Made by a program: the position numbers and the translations under genes
Notes under the pieces: generated by a model
What the model was told of the DNA's origin: nothing
The model's input: the letters and a program-made list of their open reading frames with translations, nothing else
The model's database searches: none
DNA from: Styela clava
Taxonomy: Eukaryota; Chordata; Ascidiacea; Stolidobranchia; Styelidae
Length of the DNA stretch: 64,000 bases
Direction of reading: 5' to 3'
Assembly (NCBI RefSeq): GCF_964204865.1
Contig: NC_135254.1
Coordinates: 14,141,001 to 14,205,000, forward strand
Part shown: in pieces, positions 14,301-63,912 of the stretch
How the letters are laid out: each line of letters begins with the position of its first letter
How positions within the stretch are numbered: position 1 is the stretch's first letter

Positions 14301-17021
14301 TCGATTCTTTGAAATATCGTAAAAAATCAGGTTAAGAACGATTTACCACTGCAATCAATGTTGTATTGTATTCTTTGAAATACAGAGAAAATCCGGTAAA
14401 GTACGATTTATCACAGCGACTAATGTTATGTTAAAAAACAGAAAATCCACTAGCTGGTTGCGGCAATACTAGCAATAGGCCTTTATAACGATGTAAATGT
14501 CGTCGGATACATGATTAATCATACTTTGATTTTAAAAACAACATATTGCAGTAACGGAGTGCATGAAATCGACTTGACTTGATTCGAAACTCGATGTGAC
14601 AATCACCCTCCATCAACACGACTGATTTCTAACTACAGAGTTTTTCCCATCGCATCGTTAAATAATCTATCTATATTCTATATGATTGATTTACAGGTGT
14701 GGTTGGACGCCGGTACACAAATTTTCTTCTCCTACGCAATTTGTCTTGGTGCTATGGGATCACTTGGCAGCTACAACAAATATCACAATAATTGCTATCT
14801 GGTACGTTTGGTTTTAAGATTATTGAAGACTTCTATTTAAATGTTATTGATTCTCTTGAACTTTATATTCAATACAGGACTGCATTGCACTCAGCCTATT
14901 AAATTCCGGTACAAGTTTCATCAGCGGTTTTGCTATTTTCAGCGTTCTTGGATTTATGGCAACAGAACAAGGGGTTGATATTAAAGATGTTGCTTCATCT
15001 GGTGAGTAGAAGTAAGACAGGATGTACTTATTTATCATTTAAATCTAATTCCCATTTTAAAAAAATTTCAGGTCCTGGTCTAGCCTTCATTGCCTATCCA
15101 AAAGCCGTGACACTAATGCCACTTTCAACTTTGTGGGCAATCTTATTTTTCGTCATGCTCCTGCTTCTTGGACTGGATAGTCAGGTATGTTTAAATATCC
15201 AGTTTATAGGACAAACATCCTTACTACTCGTTGTTCATTGCGATAAACACCGCGAACTACTAAATGAACTATAAAACGGCAACGCACACACCTTTATTAC
15301 TCTGAGATTTAGTGCCGAAAAAAAGGAAAGCCAATTTCGGTACACCCTGAGAGGTATGCTTACAGTAGCTATCTCAGTACATTTTCATTTTCTGTTTATA
15401 TATACATATATATCGTAATCATTTGCTTTAGTTTGTAGAAATGGAAGGTTTTATAACATCCGTCGTCGACCTTTTCCCGGGATTTCTTCGAAAAGGAAAA
15501 AGAAGAGAAATATTCATTGGAATCACCTGCTTGGTTTCATATTTAATCGGACTGTTTATGGTGACCGAGGTAAGAAAAATAATTTCCTACTTGCTGTCAG
15601 TATGGCTCTGAGCTATTCGCAAATTACAACAAAATATTGTTTAGGGTGGAATGTACGTCTTCCAACTATTCGACTATTACGCCGCCAGTGGAGTGTGCTT
15701 ACTTTGGGTGGCATTTTTCGAGTCGGTGACAATCGCATACATTTACGGTGAGTTATGTCGTTCTATTTCAATATACTATTAAATGCTTATTCTCCATGAA
15801 ATTGCAATAAATTTAATGTAATATACAAGGGAACAAAGCTAATATGTAGGCCATTTTCAAGTTGTTGATTTAAAATGACTTTCGATTAATCACTAGCTTT
15901 AGTAACTTGTAATGTAAGTCATAAGTAATGACGCATCATTATGCTACAGGCGCTGAGAAAATGTGGGGAAACATAGCGGACATGATCAGATATCGGCCGA
16001 TACCAATCATCAAATATTTCTGGTTGATATTTACTCCAATCCTGACAACGGTAAGAAGAATAGAGCAATTATATTGCCGTTTACCAAGTACCGTAGTTAT
16101 AAATACCGTGGGAATGTTGGCAAAATATACGTAAATTTGTATAAATATGTGTAGCTTTCATCTTATCTCAAATACAAAAGCCGTAATTACTGACTACAAC
16201 TGAAGTGAGAAATACGATAGTCACAGATAGTAATCTGAGTAATTCTCATATATGGTAAAACTTGAATATTACTTTATTTTTATTTAAAATTATTTCCAGG
16301 GAACTTTCCTCTACGCCATGATCGAGTTCGAACCTTTGGTATACAACAAGACGTACGTCTACCCTCCTTGGGGAGAGGGAATCGGATGGATTTTAGCTCT
16401 CAGTTCCATGATCAACGTACCTGTGTACGCAATTTACATACTGATTAAAACTCCGGGGACTGCACAAGAGGTATGTATGCTATATACAACAAGAAACAAT
16501 GGCTCTTTGAATAGTTTTAATAGGCTTAGTTGTTTTGACAAAACTAATCAACAACCTCATAAGCATCAAATAAATATGTATCGCTAAATTTATTTCTAGT
16601 GATAGTTTACAATCTTTACAATTATCAAATTTTGTCTTTTGCAATGCCTGTGGACCGTAGTATTATTCACATTCAACGATTTGTATCCATCACAATATAA
16701 TGCGTTAAAGTCAATCAATGTATTACGAAGCCCTGTATATACTGTAACTTGAATTCAATTTTCACCCAGCAATTGTAAACTAGCAAATGCAAAAATAATT
16801 TTGAACTTGTAAATAAATATTTTCAGAAATGGATATTCTTGACCACACCCCAGCTGCAGCCAGATCACCCTCATTATGAGAAAAACAAGGAAGAAACAAA
16901 TCAATCGAGACCGCCTTGGTATATAAGGCTGAGGTCCAACTTTACAGGGCCTTCTTTCAGCACGACTTACGGTGTAGATGCAAAAGGTGCTCACGATAAT
17001 CCAACTTTCAGTGAGATGTAG
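11370..17021 (+). CDS. SLC6 sodium/chloride-dependent transporter, taurine transporter-like, 13 exons
   Basis: Exons 11370-11538, 11809-11940, 12840-13191, 13466-13598, 13831-13965, 14697-14801, 14878-15001, 15072-15184, 15432-15569, 15645-15747, 15950-16050, 16300-16470 and 16827-17021 join in frame to 656 residues, typical of SLC6. TM1 has [20 protein letters not shown], a form I associate with taurine carriers; TM6 has [22 protein letters not shown]7 has NSGTSF and TM8 GLDSQFVEMEG, supplying the expected Na+ and Cl- ligands. [16 protein letters not shown] also favours taurine over GABA, betaine or creatine carriers. The second extracellular loop has the conserved Cys pair, several N-glycosylation sites and a Thr-rich stretch. 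It should import taurine or a related amino acid across the plasma membrane, perhaps for osmolyte balance. Substrate assignment is inference from resemblance. Confidence 0.95.
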
Positions 17022-17168
17022 TCTCGGTAGAAAATAGAGGAATGTTATCTGAATATAGTCTAGTATTGTAGTAGCATTGGCATATTATATTGTGTGTTTT
17101 CTACGTTTTCTTGTGTTCTTTATATCATTTAGATATAATAAGCCTGACTAAAGCTAATATGTATTCTC

Positions 17169-17174
17169 AATAAA
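17169..17174 (+). promoter_or_regulatory. Poly(A) signal AATAAA of the SLC6 gene
   Basis: AATAAA about 150 bp after the TAG stop of the transporter, on the same strand. Confidence 0.6.
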
Positions 17175-17974
17175 CATGTACATTGAAATAATTTACTTCA
17201 TTTTTGCAAAGTGCAGAACGAATACAAGTTATTATATATATTATAGAGAACATTTTGATATAAAATAACAAGAGAGCAAAGCTAAATTATGTAGACACGG
17301 AGGTCAAATGTCAAAACAGTGTTCCCATGAATAGAAAAAAAAAATTGATTGAAAGATCGGGCCACTTAAACTTCAGGAAGGAATGTGAAAAATAAGTAAT
17401 GCCCTTCTAACGACTCAACAATCTTCAATTGTGTACATGAAATTTGGATTCAGTTTTTCGCCCCTACATCAAACCCAACCACGACAATATCACTACCCGA
17501 TTATTTTTGAAAACTTCGTGTTGAAGTGAGTTAAAAATAGTATAAAATAGTGCTATCTTAAGAAAATAAATTAAAAATTCAATATATGACAGATTGACTG
17601 TGCACATAGAGGACATAGAATCGGTTCCATATCTTCGCAGTTTAGAGGAGATGAATGTCCCCTTCTTTTACCAAATCTCTTCTGTTACAATTCAACCTGT
17701 TTCTTTAATATAATGTCACCTTTGCCACGTGTAACCGCTTTCTTTGGTATGAAGTTCTTTCAGGGTATGTTAACACCTAACAAAAGTGAGACAAAAAGAT
17801 CTTCCTGATTTCAAACTCGTTTCTTCTGCGCCATTCGGAGGAAACATTCTGGTCTCAGAGCTACCCAACATTGATTTCAAGCTGTATATGCTTGGCCAAT
17901 TATAAAAAGTTACGGGTTTCACTCAAGCCAATTTCAACTAAAAGTAAGACAAATTCCGAAATACATACATTTTT
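17175..17974. other. Intergenic between convergent genes, no gene seen
   Basis: Short AT-rich spacer between the 3' ends of the plus-strand transporter and the minus-strand sushi gene. No exon or element end is evident. Confidence 0.4.
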
Positions 17975-17980
17975 TTTATT
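17975..17980 (-). promoter_or_regulatory. Candidate poly(A) signal of the sushi gene
   Basis: TTTATT on the plus strand reads AATAAA on the minus strand, about 300 bp beyond the stop codon of the minus-strand sushi gene. Confidence 0.4.
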
Positions 17981-18275
17981 GTAAGTCGATTTTAGTTGAG
18001 ACAAAAAAAATGTTGGTGATGAGTTGGAAATTACTAATAGCCGTAATTACTAATCGTTTTGCAGTGAAAAACCAAAAAAAAAATTATTTAGAAATTTTAG
18101 TAAATATAAATCATTTGTTGATTTGTCTTTAAAAAGTTTTTCAACCAAGCATTTTCTCAGTCAGAACCTTCGTTAAGCATGTTCACGTTCAGCATCTAAT
18201 ATTTATAGTGTTTGTTTCGCTCATAAATTTACAAGACTATTTCGAAATTTGTATTCCAAACGATATACATCAGCA

Positions 18276-21200
18276 TTAGCAATCTGTCGGCAAATTTGAA
18301 ACGTCACATGGCTCCGGGTATATTTGTTTCTTCATCATTTGTCTGATTAATTTTGCCACTGCTTTTATGGTGGTTGATTTAGTTGTGATATAGCATTTAG
18401 CAGATTGACCAGTTTCAGCATCGATACATTCAAATATGTCCCTGAAGAATAATCCTTGTGACGAACGACACTGTATTTGATGACCGGCATAATTTATCTA
18501 AAATGAAAAAAGAGCTATATGACCTGCTATACAGGTAATCTATATGAGCATGCCATAAAAATTAACCGTCGATAATTATACCAAGATATCTTATAGTGAC
18601 ATCACTAACATGAACTCTAAATTTACCCTAATTCGAATTGATATCGTAAAAAGTAATAATTGTTCCTGAATTTTCAACGATGAATTTTGTAGAAACAATT
18701 TCACCTACTATACCAATGACTTTTCAGTGGTTAAAGAGTGTTGTTATCGCTCGAACGGTATTACTTTATTCATTTCCAAACATTCTGCGGGTTTCATAAG
18801 ATTCATTTTCACTCTGAAGTTTTGCGTGATAACGTCATCAAAATTAGGCATAGTGGGGCGGTTCCGCGATCGCATTTCATCGATCTGGTGTTCAGCGAAG
18901 CCACGAGTTTATTGATGATGATGACTATCGGTACTCTAAGTCTAAAATATTTTATATATACCGGTACTACTTCGTATTGCTAAGGCTTTATGCTAATTAA
19001 CGTAGAAGATGAACAATTAAAGACCCAGTGTTGATTCCCCGAGAAAAAAAAAACACTGGGAAAGATGGAAACCTAATTGATAGCCGCTTATTATGTTAGT
19101 CAAAATATTTTGAGCCTTTTGAATCGTTTAAATAGTTTTGAAAGTATATAATTACAGACAATATAAAAAAAGACAACGTTCAATTTAACTTCGTGAAATT
19201 GGTATACCCTGGTATGCATGAAATTTGAAATGCTCCGACTCGGGTAACGATAAAGATTACGTTATACTGTGTATTCCAATTTGTACGTTTTATCGTTTTA
19301 TGTATCTTAATAAACACTTCAGAGAATTAATAAAATCTTATTCAAATTCCAGTAATACAGCACTTCCTTACCGACAATCATTCGTTCTCACTTCTTCTTA
19401 TTATCTGTTGTTGTAAAACATTCCAAGATGTTGATGATTCACAATATTCGTCTGTTTTACACTTTTTGCAAACGCAGCTTGGTATATTAGGAGACCAACT
19501 GAAGTTATCTCCACAAACAAAATTAGTTTTTCCCTGTGAAAAGAGATGGACTTGTTTGCTTGATTTCATCACTGCAACTTTATTCGATGTGTCCTAATTT
19601 ACAAGTAATTTATTTTAATTAAGAAGATTTTTAATAATGATCAGATCCTCGGGTAACAAACTAATTCCACGAGAAATTTGGGAACGCCTTTTCAAATTCA
19701 AATTCATTCATAAAAATACTAAAACAATGCCAGGTACTGAGAACGCGCGAAGATAAAATAAAAATAAAATGCACTGAAATGGAATTTTTATTTCTAGCTA
19801 ATACTAGCCAGGATCAGATAACTGTCAATGGTATTTTAACATTTTGCGGTCATCGTTTAAAACCCTTATTTGTACTTTAACTCTTTATATCCATGAATTT
19901 AAAATTGTTAGCTCTTTTTCCATCTATTTTAGAGTCATAGGCTATTGGCATTTCCTTTATTTAAATTCTATGTAAAATCGATCGTAACAGGAATCGAGAT
20001 AATTATTAGTTAATGAGATCTTTTATTTTTGAAAAATCATAAATTTTTTATATTAAAAATGTTCCGTGGACCAAAAAAGTTGAAAATCACTGATGTAGAG
20101 GATATGCACGCATTTCTACAAACAAATTGATCATAATATTCACTAATTCATTGACTATTATCTCAGAAAATAGTTTGTGATTTAGGTAAACAAATTTTTG
20201 TATTTTCTCCTCGCGCACCGCTTAATACATGCTTGATATAGAATAACTAAATTGGAATACATTATGATTGTTTTGAACGGTATATTGATATTGATGAGAG
20301 GCAATAGCTGGCATACCTGAATGACATGGTTCTGCAGACATTCAACTTTACAATAAGACCCTTGGCGATTGGAATGAGTACAACTTATTTCTCCATACGG
20401 AATGCTATTACGTTGTAGAGGTTGACATCCTGAGAAGTTAAATAACATGATATCGTATAAATATAAGATATCTTATAGACCTGAACTGCTTCGAGTCTCT
20501 CTCCAATCGGTATGTGATAACGCCTAATTTATCGCTATATATACATCTTTATACTCCAGATCTTGGCACTTTTTTGGTTGCCTCAACTTCGCTCGGAACC
20601 AGTCTCCTTTGCGTCTTAGTGAGTGCACGTGACCATTCATAGAGCAAAAGTTGTTTTATAAAAAGAAATTTGCATTTTCAAATACGTGATACTAACAATA
20701 TAAGGATAGATCATAATAACTGTTCCGATATCATGGCCGTCTGTCAAAACGTTATTTTATAACGTAATAACGTTGGCAAATAATCCAACGTTTGTTCTTA
20801 AACATGATTTCACAAATAGAAACTATACTTTTCTGATTTTGCAATTCCTTTTCATTGAAATCCATTTTGGTTTCATTTTGAACAATATCATCTTCCTTTT
20901 GAGCTGTTGATGTTTTCTTCAGCAGCTTTATTTCTGTAAATGAATGTAGAGGCATTGATAATGCAGCAAAAGTTCAACATTTGATATATTCTTTGGAATG
21001 AGGAGTTTTTATATCAATGAATCTATAGAGAAAAAGATTAGTTTTTATAAAGCTTGTATATATTTCGTACAAAACAACTCCATCAACAAAAGTCACTTCT
21101 ACGTGATGTCAGTTTCCTTAATTAAATCGGGGATATAAATATCTACTGCTTTATATAGTATTCTATTTCAAAATATGAAAAGTTGCAGACGACAATTTTG

Positions 21201-23575: not shown

Positions 23576-23926
23576 CAGTGTTTTTCAACCTTTTTCGAGC
23601 CAAGGCACACTTTTTTAAGTGGGAAAATCCCGCGGCACACCACCAGCTGAAAATATGGGGAAAAGACCTAATATTCACAATATAAGTGTTATATTGTTAA
23701 AATAATATTTTTAACATTGAAGAAAGATGTTGAATAGGACATCCTGAATAGTAATCAAATAAAAACGAAGACAAAAAAAAATCGCCACCAGATGCTGCCA
23801 CGGTCTGATATAGAACAGTACTACATGATTACTCTGCCGGACGCTACACCGCATGTACACACAACTTGGAGAATTTCCCACGGCACCCCTGACATTATTT
23901 AACGAAACCCCGGTTGAAAAACACTG
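23576..23926. mobile_element. hAT-type non-autonomous element, 351 bp
   Basis: The ends CAGTGTTTTTCAACC and GGTTGAAAAACACTG are perfect inverted repeats. The element is flanked by an exact 8-bp direct repeat ATTTAGGG (23568-23575 and 23927-23934), the hallmark of hAT transposition. No transposase is encoded. Confidence 0.92.
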
Positions 23927-24159: not shown

Positions 24160-24999
24160 CAGTGGTCACCAAAGTGTGGGCCCTGACCCCAAGTGGGGTC
24201 GCCGAGTGCCCATCGTTGTCTTTTCTTTTAATATTTTTATTATGTGTGTGACTTCTCGGCTTAACGCTAGATACTTCAAACAAAAGAATGAATAACAAGC
24301 CCGCAGACAGGTAATATCAAGAGCAATTACGATAAATCAATTATATCATCATAATCACAAATTTAGTCCGTGTGAAAAACAGCGTTCTATGACACAAATA
24401 CACAACAGTGTGCAGTCTGCACTGTTAAGTTGAATAACGCTACATAGGCTAACAAGTTTCGACATTTCGAATTGGAGTGACTTCTTTTATAATAAGGCTA
24501 TTGCGTAACGACAGTAATTTATATTTTAAAGTAAATCGTTATTGTGTCTTAATTGTACTCTGTACAGTGGCCGTTGCTTTTACTGCAAATCCTCATTTTC
24601 CAGGCTACCGTCATATTGATAATTACAATTTATTAAATGGCTGATAAACATAAAAGAAAAATATCGTATGATCAATCTTTTTGAAATCTTGACTTTTAGT
24701 GCTATAAGTCTGCTACAATCAAAGCGCCGAAATCGATTAAACGTAGAACACGATTTGCGTTAGAGCTTAAACAACATTAAGACACGAATGCAAGATCTCG
24801 TTGGAAGGAAGCAGTCGCATTCTTCACACTGATTAAATATGGTTGTTGTTGGGTTCTTTTAATAAATTTCCTAATTTGATAAATATTTTTTTCGTGTCTG
24901 TAGGTGAACATACATATATATAACTTGGGGTCGCGAGTGCTTATCATACGTAATAATATTGTAGATGGGGTCGTGTCTCAAAAAGTTTGAAGACCACTG
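24160..24999. mobile_element. hAT-type non-autonomous element, 840 bp
   Basis: The left end CAGTGGTCACCAAAGTGTGG and right end AAGTTTGAAGACCACTG are inverted relatives, with GGGGTCG blocks just inside both ends. An exact 8-bp duplication TTCTAGAG flanks it (24152-24159 and 25000-25007), matching the nTCTAGAn preference known for many hAT transposases. No transposase frame is visible. Confidence 0.92.
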
Positions 25000-25135
25000 T
25001 TCTAGAGGAACTGAAAAATTTAACCATTTAGTAAACGGTAATGACTTATTTACATATTTTGAATTATGTCATAAATATGAAATTGAATATAGTGTGTCAG
25101 AGTATATAGAATAATATAAACTCATTAGTTGTATC

Positions 25136-25396
25136 CAGTGGTGGAATTCGGCCAGTTCGCATCGGTTCTATAGAACCGTCTCGCGGAATTTTAGGAGATC
25201 AGCGAACCGTTAGCATTACTAAAGAAACATATAACAGAACCGGCCGAAAATTCTTCAGTAATTCATTTGTTGAGAGGACCAATTACTATAATAAAGTCGC
25301 TCACAATTATATATTTTCAAGTATTCGAGATTCGATTCGAAAAAATTATCCGATTCGATTCTGAAATCACAAGATATTCGAAAATGCCCAGCCCTA
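25136..25396. mobile_element. Chimeric hAT element: left end of one family, right end of another
   Basis: The left part (25136 to about 25245) begins CAGTGGTGGAATTCGGCC and matches the left end of the element at 50338. The right part (about 25246-25396) matches the inner and terminal part of the TAGGGCTGGGC family (copies at 25874 and 39077) and ends GCCCAGCCCTA. The whole unit is flanked by a perfect 8-bp repeat GTTGTATC (25128-25135 and 25397-25404). The two ends are not inverted repeats of each other. Confidence 0.8.
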
Positions 25397-25873
25397 GTTG
25401 TATCCCAGATGAATGGATCGATAGCCTTAGTAATGGTAATGTCACTTTTCATAACATAGATCAGTATTGACACCGTGGTTTATCGTTGTTGTGGGTAAGG
25501 TAATACGTTTCCTCCCAGTTTACCTCGGTCACCTTTTTTATTACACCCATTGTATGTTGAGATGTTATATATATTTGACTAACTTTATTACTTGTAGAGT
25601 GAGCAGGCCCGGTGCTATCGTCAAAGTTGTGGTGCTATCACCAAGTTGTCTAGGTTGCGATTCCGGACCCAGCTAAAAAAAAATAGATCGCGCGTCGCTA
25701 AGTCAGCTCTGCGGTTCGTTACTGCTGTCACATGGCCAACGCTTAAAAATAGCGGAGTGTTTTACTAAAATGAAGGCACAAAACGTCCCTTTAAATGAGG
25801 GGTTACTTGACGCGAGCTTGAGGCACAAAGTTTAGATAAAAAGCGCGACTCATCTCATCGACTTGGTCCTGTC

Positions 25874-26274
25874 TAGGGCTGGGCATTTTCGAATACCTTG
25901 TGATTTCAGAATCGAATCGAATAATTTTTTCGAGTCGAATCGAATCTCGAATACTTGAAAATATATAATTGTAAGCGACTTTATTATAGTAATTGGTCCT
26001 CTCAACAAATGAATTACTGAAGACATAGAATGATTCACTCAGATAGATTACTGAGCGTTCACACAGAATAACAAACACGTTTTATCAATAACTCACTACA
26101 GAAAATAGTCATATGTTAGAATTCCGTTGAAAAAATATGACTCCAATGAAAAAAAAAATTGGGGAATTCACCTCGACCATTAGCGGAAAGATAAAAACAA
26201 GATGACGGCGATTCGAAATTTAGCTCTGAACCGATTCGAATAATTTACTATTCGATTCGAAATGCCCAGCCCTA
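25874..26274. mobile_element. hAT-type MITE, TAGGGCTGGGC family, 401 bp
   Basis: The ends TAGGGCTGGGCATTTTCGAA and TTCGAAATGCCCAGCCCTA are inverted repeats. An exact 8-bp duplication GTCCTGTC flanks it (25866-25873 and 26275-26282). The interior is rich in ATTCGAATCG runs. It lies in the opposite orientation to the copy at 39077. Confidence 0.92.
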
Positions 26275-38413: not shown

Positions 38414-39076
38414 TGTTGTCACACAGTTCATGCCACAATACACATTTTGTATATCGATAAATATTATCGGACCACAATACAAATGTTTACACGCAACGAA
38501 ATGCATGCTTCGAACAAAATTATGTTGAAAATTGAATTGACAGTTCTCAACAAAGTAGCCTACAGTAAGAATAAGTGAATGCAACATACAGTGCGATTTA
38601 AGTATAAACAGCAAATGTAACGAAATGGAAGTGTCAGGGATATACAAAGCAGTTAAATTTACTTGGCGATAAGGCGCAACCAATTACACCTCCATTTGAA
38701 AATCAATCGCTGAGAATGAAGCAGCTTTTAGTAGTCAGTATTTTACTCAATTGAATTGTAGAAAACAATTTTTACCAATATTATGTATAACATAAATAAT
38801 TTCACATCCAGTATTTCACTCTGGCACTCTGGGCATTTACACACTAGAGCGTCTCAACTCTCAAGTAAACCTTGTCTAAAAAGTCGGTCTGGATATTTTG
38901 ATTCAAAAGGTAAATTATTCGAATCAGTTAAGAAAAAAATTTCGAATCTTTTTTTTTGTCCGCCCAATCAGTATTTCGTGTGGAAGCTTCATTTTGAAAA
39001 GGCAATTCTCTATTTCTATGACTCTATTCCCCCAGTGAATTATTGATGAAGCATGTTTCTTATTGCGTGTGACAAC

Positions 39077-39472
39077 TAGGGCTGGGCATTTCGAATCGAA
39101 TAGTAAATTATTCGAATCGATTCAGAGCTAAATTTCGAATCGCCGCCATCTTGTTTTTATCTTTCCGCTAATGGTCGAGGTGAATTCCCCAATTTTATTT
39201 TCATTGGAGTCATATCTTTTCAACGAAATTCTAACATATGACTATTTTCTGTAGTGAGTTATTGATAAAACGTGTTTGTTATTCTGTGTGAGCGCTCAGT
39301 AATCTATCTGGGTGATTTATTCTATGTCTTCGGTAATTTATTTGTTGAGAGGACCAAATACTATAATAAAATCGCTTACAATTATATATTTTCAAGTATT
39401 CGAGATTCGATTCGAAAAATATTATTCGATTCGATTCTGAAATCACAAGGTATTCGAAAATGCCCAGCCCTA
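39077..39472. mobile_element. hAT-type MITE, TAGGGCTGGGC family, 396 bp
   Basis: The ends TAGGGCTGGGCATTTCGAAT and ATTCGAAAATGCCCAGCCCTA-like sequence are inverted repeats. An exact 8-bp duplication GTGACAAC flanks it (39069-39076 and 39473-39480). Nearly all internal blocks are shared, in reverse orientation, with 25874-26274. Confidence 0.92.
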
Positions 39473-39480
39473 GTGACAAC

Positions 39481-40723
39481 CCAGCGAACTGATTAAGTGA
39501 TGGATTCTGTTTGTTCAGTAATTTATGTATTTGAAGAAACCATTTTAATAAAAAGTCACATACAATTACATATCTTCAAAGTATTCAAGGTTCGATTCCA
39601 AAAAAAAATTCGATTTGATTCCGAAATCATCGGGTATTCGAAAATACCCGAGACCAACTGAAAAAAATTGTTATTACCTGATTCAGAAAGATCCGTTTGG
39701 GAAAAAATGCGCCTGTTAAATACTTATATATCCGATATATATATATATATTATGTTCGACTTCCTGAATAGTAACAGTTTTTGCAAATGCATTTTTTTAT
39801 ATCATATATATTCTTATATAAACGCAATTAATTAATTATCGGTCCACATTTTCAACACTACTCGTGAGTCGCGACAATACTCGAATGTTGTATTCTTATT
39901 TTATCTACTGTTTCGTAACCAACCGTAGAATTTTCAGGACTGAAGAACTTGCGAAAAAGAACGGTTACTTATATCTTTCAGTAATTTGCACTTGTGCTTA
40001 ATCCTCTCACTGGGAAAAAAATATTCGAAAATGTGCGAGAACCACATAAAAGTTTTGCTTGAATGGTGAAACACATTGCTTAATGTGGTTTGTTATTTCA
40101 CTGAAGATTAACAAAAAAATTTACTTATATATGATATACAACATTTAGTAAATATTTCAAAAATCAATATTGCTTCAAAATTAATCATCATTTTGATAGC
40201 TGTATGTCTGCCGTGAAAAAAATCAAATATTTTTTGTCCTTGCCCGTTCAAAACGGTGTCTCCAAAATGGCTAAAAGTGTTAACATTTTTTTTATGTAAC
40301 CACTATTGTCGACATTGAAGTGTGGTGTGAACTAGGTTCGCTGAAAACGCGTAAGGATCAATAGAAAGATAACTATATAATTGTTCTTCACCCACCTTTG
40401 TTTCTGGCGTCCGTTATTGTTATTCAAGGTCAGGTTTAAAATTTAGTACTCATTCATCCTTTTGTGCAGTCAAGAAATTTCAAAGATAGCCAAAGACACC
40501 TTGGCCACCCCTGATTAAGACAAATATATCAGCTTTTCAGCAATTTTGCCCCAGTATTGCGTTAAAAATCAAATGGCTACGGATGATTTCTAATCTCAGA
40601 CGACAATTTCAAGCCGACAGTTGGGGCTGATGAGTAATAATTTATCTATTTCTTTATTTATATAAAAAAACGCGTCCGGGCTCTCAGTCATAAACATCTT
40701 CGCAACGGTAGAAAAAGTAAATT
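39481..40723. other. No gene seen
   Basis: Repeat-like and AT-rich. Positions 39560-39660 carry a degraded ATTCGA-rich remnant that resembles the preceding element. No exon supported. Confidence 0.35.
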
Positions 40724-50337: not shown

Positions 50338-50857
50338 CAGTGGTGAGATTCAGCCGGTTCGCACCGGCTCTATAGAATCGTCTCACGGAATTTTATGAAC
50401 TCAGCGAACCGGTTATCATTAGGATAGGATAGGATTTACATATTTACCCCGGGGCAGAGGAAAGCCGATAAGGCGGCTTAATCATATGGCGAACAACGGC
50501 TACTCGTCCGGTTACCAGTCCAGGTCGGGTATGGGATCAGTTAGCCAGTTATATTTGTTTTCGAAAGCATGGACTTGACGGTGGAGGAAGCCGTAACCGA
50601 CCAGCGGTTACGTGAACCCTACGGCGGCGAGGAGTCCAGTAATCCTTTCGCACATGATCATCCCCGCATGAGATTCGAATCTGCGAACCCACAAAGGGTA
50701 ATCAAAGATGCTGTGGCGAGTGTATTCCTAACGCTTAGCACATGCGCCACACCGCCGAGCCCTGGTTACTGTCCATTTTCTGTTTGTTACAGAACCGGCT
50801 GAAAAATATAACTTTTGTGAAAGAACCGGCTGTCAAAAAATTTGAATCCCACCACTG
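50338..50857. mobile_element. hAT-type element carrying a nested SINE, 520 bp
   Basis: The ends CAGTGGTGAGATTCAGCC and TTTGAATCCCACCACTG are inverted relatives. The 8-bp flanks ATTACATT (50330-50337) and GTTACATT (50858-50865) differ at one position. The element is interrupted by a tRNA-derived SINE at about 50421-50763. Its left part matches the left half of the chimera at 25136. Confidence 0.85.
50421..50763 (-). mobile_element. tRNA-derived SINE nested in a hAT element
   Basis: On the minus strand the unit starts CAGGGCTCGGCGGTGTGGCG and contains an A-box-like TGGCGCATGTGCTAAGCG (50732-50750) and a B-box-like AGATTCGAATCTC (50671-50683), the split RNA polymerase III promoter of a tRNA gene. 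It ends in a CCTAT repeat tail, visible on the plus strand as AGGATAGGATAGGAT at 50421-50435. It does not fold as an intact tRNA gene. Confidence 0.7.
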
Positions 50858-61604: not shown

Positions 61605-63912
61605 ATGGATAAAAAGGTTTTTGTTAGATTGCATGATCAATCTATGAAAACGATTTCTCAGGAAGATATATCATTTGTTGGAGAATTATCGAATCATTTA
61701 CAATTGGATGATTACTATGTGGTGTGTGAAGGAAAAGTTGCTAATGATGGAGATGTTATTATACCAGGGAAATGTTACTCAATTTGCCTACGTTTACGAG
61801 GAGGTAAAGGAGGGTTTGGATCTATGTTGAGAGCGATTGGTGCACAGATTGAAAAGACGACAAACAGGTACTAAATTGTTATTTTTCATATTTGATATCA
61901 TAAATTTTTTGTTCTTTTTAATGTGTATTTTTGAAAGAATGTTTGGATTTTTCATTTCATAATTGAGTGATATTCTAATCCTATCAACACGCTTCATTAG
62001 TACTATATGTCACAAGTTTCCAAGATTGCTTTAATTCATTTCTACATATTTGAAAGGCATTACATTATGCATACCAAATATCTTTTATCTTTGAACATGA
62101 TCATAAAAAATAGCTTCTAGACCAGGGGTTCCCAAACCAGCGGTCGCGACCCAAATTGGGTCGGAGTGATAAGTAGGTGGGGTCGCAAACAGGTCATGAG
62201 GTCGGTGGGGTCGCTGAGGTATGGTGGAGGATGAATGTACAAAACATTTAAGATTTGATAAATCATGTTAAATTTAGCAGCTTGTTCCATGGCTTACTGT
62301 AAAACAGGCCCATAGGCATCGCTATATGCTTATGCTATAGAAAAGGTAGGTGCTTATTGCAACATCACTGTTTGGTTTTAGCTTATTTTACTTAATATCA
62401 CCACATGACCAAACTCAAAGTCCAGTGAAAGAAGCTCCAAAGTTTCATGAAAAATATATATGTTGACCTGGGGTCGCACTGGACACTTGAAAGTTGTTAT
62501 ATGGGTCGTTCTAAAAAAAGCTTGGGAACCCCTGTTCTAGACTAAAGTATAACGATGTAACCACTAGGGCACTGTTGCGACAATTTGACTTATTCAGGAA
62601 TCTTTTATTCGGCAATCCAGAAGTATTTGTACCATTGTACCAATATGGAGGTAACTAATTTTGTTCGCCAACTTTACATCAAGTTGTGTAAAGGGACGGA
62701 AGCTTATGGGCAGGGGGTATATTCAATTGGCTAACACAAACAATCCCCGAACTTGTAATAGAACTAAAATAAGGAAAATCGGAATAACGCTATGGCCTAA
62801 CCTGACCTGGTACACATACTACTGAGTACTCTCTATTCTAATCACTGAAACCACATATTAGATTAACATACAATGATAAAAATATACATTTGTGATATTT
62901 TTCCAGGGAAGCATGTAGAGATTTAAGTGGAAGAAGGATGAGAGATGTCAACAATGAAAAGAAAATGGTGGAATACCTCGAAAAGAAAGCAGAACGAGAA
63001 AGAGATCGCGAGAAGAAACGAATTGAGAAATTGGAAAGACTTACACAACAACCAAAACATTTTTTCAACGATCCAGATTACGAGTCGAAACTACGAGAAG
63101 CAGTGGAAAATGTTGATAACGCGGTTGAGAAAGGGATTATCGCACACACAAAGAAAAGGAAATCCAATCCAAATGAAAAACAGAAGGAACCAAAAATTAA
63201 AAAAGGACTTTGGCTCGGTGAGGAACCGATGAGTGACAGTGACTCAGATAATGACGACATCGATGAATTAAAATCTGCATCGAGACTACAAAGCTCATCC
63301 ACAAAACATGGTTTAGAGTTGGGAGCATCCACAAGCAAAAATAATTCAGTCTTAACGCAAGCACATACATCTGCAAAAAGTAGTTCGGTATCTGGGATAT
63401 CTACAATTGAAAGTGATTCTGTTTCATCTGGCTCAACATCCGCAGCATTACCAACCCCTGAAGATTCCAATAATAAATTACCAGAAACGATAAAAGTTCC
63501 AGATACCTCGGGTTCCAAAACCACCAGCGAGACTAATGAAGAAACCAAAGTTATTGGAAATATTAAAAATGAAAATACTGGCAAAGAAAGTGCCAATGAA
63601 TGTAACAAAATTAACAACAGCCAAAATCAGACTGAAATCGCTGTTATCAATTCAGTTGAAAAAGATGACACTTCCAAAGAACTATTGAATGTGGATGACA
63701 TTGATTTATCTAAATATTCTACGGCAGATGAACTAGAGTCTCTCGGGTTAGAAACTTTGAAATCATTACTAATGAAAAAAGGTGTAAAATGTGGCGGCTC
63801 TCTGGAAGAAAGAGCCTCAAGACTGTTTACAGTGAAGGATTTAGCACCAGAGAAAATTGATCCAAGTCTGCTTGCGACAAAGTCTAAAAAGAGAAACAGA
63901 TCGAAAAAGTGA
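61605..63912 (+). CDS. SDE2: SDE2 replication stress and splicing factor, two exons
   Basis: Exons 61605-61867 and 62907-63912 join in phase (AG|G, Arg) to 422 residues, close to human SDE2 at about 451. Residues 1-65 form the ubiquitin-like fold, ending CLRLRGG, directly followed by [20 protein letters not shown], the cleavage and conserved SDE2 core; [16 protein letters not shown] continues the signature. A charged coiled coil (about 100-145), an acidic Ser-rich middle (SDSDSDNDD) and a C-terminal SAP-like domain ([20 protein letters not shown]) follow, ending in a basic [10 protein letters not shown] tail. In known organisms the UBL is removed after GG, and the rest acts in the nucleus in PCNA-linked fork protection and in intron-specific splicing. 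The single intron contains a hAT element and a decayed foldback element. Confidence 0.97.
62123..62534. mobile_element. hAT-type MITE in the SDE2 intron, 412 bp
   Basis: The ends CAGGGGTTCCCAAACC and GCTTGGGAACCCCTG are inverted repeats, with GGTCGCGACC just inside the left end. An exact 8-bp duplication TTCTAGAC flanks it (62115-62122 and 62535-62542), again fitting the nTCTAGAn target. Confidence 0.92.
62612..62825. repeat. Decayed foldback MITE copy in the SDE2 intron
   Basis: CAGAAGTATTTGTACCATTGTACCAATATGG-like sequence at the left and CCTGACCTGGTACACATACTACTGAGTAC-like sequence at the right resemble degraded arms of the GAAGTATGTGCACCAAGATGG family. GGAATAACGCTATGGCCTAAC before the right arm parallels the interior of the long copy at 55119. 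Confidence 0.5.

Follow-up and report, generated by a model that had tools for sequence, protein, structure and literature searches.

Genomic context and structure of the chimeric element

The 64,000-nt stretch of Styela clava DNA analysed here (the window) carries genes of animal type, encoding an APBA/X11-like protein with PTB and PDZ domains, SDE2 and part of a sodium:neurotransmitter symporter. It also contains a perfect tandem duplication of 163 bp (1638-1966) and several hAT-like elements. Three of these, at 23576-23926, 24160-24999 and 62123-62534, have exact 8-bp flanks (ATTTAGGG, TTCTAGAG and TTCTAGAC, respectively) and ends that match each other at 12-14 of 14 terminal bases. Four hATs are found within 2.7 kb, including the chimeric element described below and its neighbour at 25874-26274.

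The chimeric element has a length of 261 bp (25136-25396) and joins the start of a hAT MITE of the CAGTGGTG family (referred to as C) to the end of a hAT MITE of the TAGGGCTGGGC family (referred to as T). The left part (25136-25250, plus strand) corresponds to positions 1 to about 115 of the ~168-bp C element, as established by alignment to 29 genomic C copies, and the right part (25252-25396, plus strand) to the last 145 bp of the T element (~396-401 bp), as established by the consensus of 23 aligned rows. The base at 25251 matches neither C nor T. Four GAACCG motifs and no ATTCGA are present in the left part, and five ATTCGA motifs and no GAACCG in the right part; both motifs are putative transposase-binding sites. 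On either side the element is bordered by exact copies of GTTGTATC, at 25128-25135 and 25397-25404. The initial annotation had described a composite with ends from two families and a perfect 8-bp target site duplication (TSD), and both features are real. The join, which it placed near 25246, lies in fact at 25250/25252, and the left end, correctly assigned to the C family, comprises most of a C element and not half of it.

The termini of hAT elements follow the consensus YARNG...CNYTR. The termini of the chimera, CAGTG and CCCTA, agree with this consensus; the C and T ends both fit YARNG and are identical at 7 of their first 14 bases. Judged by its sequence, the chimera would be classified as a short, non-autonomous hAT-type element with termini derived from two MITE families. 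It resembles the MITEs of the hAT superfamily, which are present as thousands of first-look candidates, in its 8-bp TSD, its YARNG ends and its small size, but differs from them in that its two ends originate from different families.

The left part matches the C copy at 50338-50857 (C50, plus strand) at 84.5% over the first 83 bp; with other C copies the match reaches 93% across the full 115 bp. C50 had been put forward as a full copy. It does belong to the C family, but it carries an insert of ~355 bp (about 50432-50786), and its flanks (ATTACATT and GTTACATT) differ at one base. By eye, the insert is similar to a tRNA-derived SINE with a TAGGA-repeat tail; it has no match in Rfam. Compared with the T copy at 25874-26274 (T258, minus strand, TSD GTCCTGTC), the right 145 bp show 3 substitutions and one 5-bp indel; compared with the T copy at 39077-39472 (T390, plus strand, TSD GTGACAAC), they show 7 substitutions and a 1-base gap. 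T390, the younger copy, appears to interrupt an older, diverged T element (38886-39649).

The parent families and the uniqueness of the junction

C copies with readable right ends measure 154-170 bp, T copies mostly about 385-415 bp. When ends were paired on the basis of flanks differing at one base at most, 66 pairs were obtained among the loci that had been fetched for their likeness to the halves of the chimera or to doublet patterns (L001-L008, L029 and L030, which are repeats of other loci, were excluded before the count). Within this fetched set 31 pairs were C/C, 34 were T/T and a single one, the chimera, was C/T; by reading, two of the 66 connect the outer ends of intact doublets.

Over its 145 bp the T part has 3 substitutions relative to the T consensus (0-5 in the other of the 23 aligned rows); L009 has two of these as well, and L015 and L028 have one. 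Relative to the C consensus, the 115 bp of the C part show 6 substitutions and one gap (1-9 substitutions in the 29 other copies). Each half thus resembles its own family and the C half looks slightly older than the T half, a weak indication, since the difference is small and the samples were picked by their similarity to the chimera.

In two cases C or T copies may have been multiplied together with their surroundings. Four T copies are found a few kb apart at C8:22788832-22800131 (L024, L025), and the common flank ACCAAAGC of the two copies that were read suggests a duplication of the surrounding segment. The C copies L050 (C19:1019871) and L051 (C19:957769) share the TSD GGTAGCAC and a right end that reads CCCTA instead of CACTG; they possibly represent one insertion that was duplicated with its environment.

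In the host genome (376.6 Mb, 379 contigs) the junction of the chimera was found once, at the locus itself, in a search that allowed up to 3 mismatches, with indel variants outside its scope; the control gave 0 matches. The initial annotation had considered that the chimera itself might transpose. As the search returned no second junction at this tolerance, nothing indicates that it does, and since the junction is unique in the host genome, the chimera is not an amplified family. Several copies with one junction and different flanks, the mark of a family with mismatched ends, were likewise absent from the 376.6 Mb at this threshold. In this assembly no other recognisable copy of the chimera remains.

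Among the 40 best of 2786 candidates retrieved with the whole chimera, the only full-length match was the chimera; the remaining 39 were confined to the T part. The best 41 of 1242 candidates retrieved with the C part consisted of the chimera itself, 39 copies matching at 87-93% along almost all of the part and a single copy with 79%, which is the second partner of a doublet (see below). The closest T copy, L009, was considered as a second chimera and rejected: its extra length matches neither C50, nor the C part of the chimera, nor the window. The junction and family-end patterns had 0 matches in the collection of viral contigs and 0 in that of genome contigs, and Rfam gave 0 matches at the gathering threshold. 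A literature search with the T terminus as text retrieved no paper on the T family, as far as titles and the openings of abstracts indicate.

The host site before insertion

The left flank of the chimera (25000-25127, plus strand) is a LINE-like fragment that hosts the insertion and continues for ~60 bp to the right of 25404. It is present at five other, paralogous loci, the right flank matching these over ~60 bp; a zf-RVT domain is found around the paralogue L086 and an RVT_1 domain around L088. The empty site can be read in L086, L087 and L088, each of which contains one GTTGTATC running straight into the same right flank. The 8 bp that are exactly repeated on both sides of the chimera, as is characteristic of a hAT insertion, are therefore single in three paralogous empty sites. 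L090 is uninterrupted as well, but reads ATTGTATA at the target.

The fifth paralogue, L089 (C6:7802139-7802389), consists of two inverted LINE fragments close together. One of these stops matching before the target. In the second, a C element that is inverted relative to the chimera stands directly behind GATGTATC; the far end of this C element and the second target copy are missing. The position of the C element, directly at GATGTATC, indicates that C alone struck this target independently in a sister copy. T alone at the GTTGTATC target was not seen in the paralogous loci. Since both halves are absent from the empty sites, these do not separate the arrivals of C and T at the chimera locus.

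Exact flanks, target preference and same-target doublets

The probability of an exact 8-bp match at fixed ends is 3e-5 on the basis of base composition, and pairs 150-1000 bases apart in this window were measured to match at a rate of 4.9e-5. A scan of the window for YARNG ends with exact 8-bp flanks yielded 7 candidates, compared to a mean of 0.83 and a maximum of 4 in 60 simulated windows. One candidate (16945-19574), with just 5 of 14 terminal bases matching, was taken for a chance hit. The ends of the chimera match least well among the remaining six, at 7 of 14 bases versus 12-14 in the others. The exact TSD around the chimera does not prove that the mismatched ends moved together, because two insertions at one target followed by a deletion can yield it too.

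The favoured 8-bp sites are palindrome-like and similar in both families, close to GTTATAAC for C and to GTYRYRAC for T. The resemblance of the TSD of the chimera to a T target, pointed out in the initial annotation, was confirmed, and GTTGTATC fits the target matrix of C even better: both matrices favour it over background, that of C ~120-fold and that of T 29-fold (each built on about 30 sites, the targets of the doublets themselves included). Sites that suit the other family as well as GTTGTATC does amount to 7 of 30 for C sites scored for T and 1 of 32 for T sites scored for C.

When a hAT element inserts into the 8-bp copy beside another hAT element, the arrangement element-8 bp-element with one shared flank results. 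Patterns of two facing ends 8 bp apart, searched in the host genome with up to 3 mismatches, revealed five such doublets (L060-L064), two C/C, two T/T and one decayed C/T, compared to 0 for each of the reversed-pattern controls. The C/C doublet at C14:1096318 has the structure GATATGAC-C168-GATATGAC-C180-GATCTGAC; its copies look like separate insertions, since they match the C part of the chimera at 91% and 79%, respectively. The T/T doublet at C19:15387430 reads GTTGCAAC-T-GTTGTAAC-T-GTTGTAAC. In the second C/C doublet (C3:10029290) and the second T/T doublet (C18:6786790) the first partner has both flanks and the second, judged by eye, leaves the family likeness after ~26 and ~45 bp, respectively, with no far end of it within either locus. 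In the C/T doublet (C19:6262591) the terminal 22 bp of C are followed by GGTATAAC and then by the initial 111 bp of T; the outer flanks of this doublet are beyond checking, because the outer parts of both elements are missing. With these patterns the host genome yielded no intact C-TSD-T doublet that retains the outer target copies on both sides. A literature search for same-target tandem insertions of hAT elements returned none, although such doublets may still have been reported.

The doublets are like the proposed precursor of the chimera in that two elements share one 8-bp target, part of a partner being missing in three of the five. They differ in that the deletion proposed for the chimera would span the middle target copy and leave a single hybrid. 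Rough arithmetic based on 1242 C and 2786 T first-look candidates, or about twice these numbers, and omitting a later deletion step, predicts 0.5-2.0 C/T, 1.4-5.3 T/T and 0.09-0.38 C/C doublets. The observed numbers of C/T (1, or 2 with the chimera) and T/T (2) are of the expected order, and that of C/C (2) exceeds the expectation. One C/T relic is therefore unsurprising, but the arithmetic serves only to show that the idea is not far-fetched.

Origin of the chimeric element

We consider it likely that the chimera represents the remains of two MITEs that were inserted successively at one favoured target and were then joined by a deletion. A C-family MITE would first have inserted at GTTGTATC in the LINE fragment, at a target where C is also found alone in a sister copy. 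A T-family MITE, which has a similar target preference, would later have inserted exactly into one of the 8-bp copies, giving GTTGTATC-C-GTTGTATC-T-GTTGTATC, an arrangement of the kind seen in the doublets. A deletion starting within C, roughly 53 bp before its right end, and reaching across the middle target copy through the left two thirds of T would then have left GTTGTATC-C'/T'-GTTGTATC; partners that are cut short occur in the doublets as well, and the resulting junction is unique. We infer the order, C before T, from the mutation load, and the doublet stage at this locus from the traces listed. This two-step reading is preferred because it relies on kinds of events that are seen in this genome. 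The initial annotation had left the choice between a chimera that transposes and a rearrangement after insertion that kept the original flanks; the latter fits better, in the form of two insertions and a deletion, and the former gains no support from the junction search.

A one-off transposition with mixed ends is unlikely in our view. In that case a hAT transposase, or a complex of two transposases, would have paired the left end of C with the right end of T, either from neighbouring elements or from a pre-formed chimera, and inserted them at GTTGTATC, so that the TSD was made directly. The exact TSD, the fit of both ends to YARNG with 7 of 14 first bases in agreement and the similar 8-bp targets of C and T are in line with this, and Ac can use the termini of separate elements (PMC4270019). 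The composites formed by alternative transposition of Ac/Ds are like the chimera in having hAT termini of two elements, with a TSD in at least one case; they are unlike it in that they have ends of the same family, contain flanking DNA of variable length and arose de novo in maize (PMC4270019). The mixed pair is the only one of 66 in the fetched set and its junction has no second copy at up to 3 mismatches. Furthermore, the ends to be paired carry unlike motifs, GAACCG in the C end and ATTCGA in the T end, an internal deletion would still be required, the two parts differ in mutation load, and few sites of either family suit the other as well as GTTGTATC does (the 7 of 30 and 1 of 32 given above). 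If it did occur, mixed-end transposition would imply that ends are recognised across MITE families despite unlike terminal repeats and subterminal motifs, and would open a way for new non-autonomous families with hybrid ends to arise.

A very improbable origin is ectopic recombination or gene conversion involving dispersed copies of the two families that had inserted independently. These processes are invoked by the authors for the chimeras of Galileo in Drosophila mojavensis (12 among 170 copies), which likewise unite termini of different groups in one element (PMC3573991). The Galileo chimeras belong to the P superfamily and have unlike 7-bp flanks, whereas the flanks of our chimera are exact 8-bp copies (PMC3573991); non-matching flanks, the hallmark of a Galileo-type recombination chimera, are thus not found here. 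With simple recombination between dispersed copies one would expect flanks that differ, and the exact flanks therefore speak against it. In addition, the LINE paralogues pass without a break from the left flank through one GTTGTATC into the right flank, and the sequence that C and T have in common at the junction is not clearly beyond that in shuffled sequence. At the junction the two families agree at 11 of 15 bases (elsewhere at 12 of 15), but with shuffled C between 0 and 24 pairs reach 11 or more, so that no microhomology is claimed. General background is provided in PMC4168063 and PMC3942097.

Least credible of all is an assembly artefact or a chance 8-bp match, which would suit a single copy in one assembly, but is opposed by the chance of 3e-5 for the flank match and by the paralogous LINE copies, which independently place the target exactly there.

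As the probable product of successive insertions of C and T at one target, followed by a deletion, the chimera is a curiosity and not a new kind of mobile element. An exact TSD around a hybrid invites the reading that it moved as a unit, and two insertions and one deletion can give the same signature. The chimera therefore calls for caution when chimeric transposons are annotated, and it illustrates on a small scale how hAT MITEs reuse a target.
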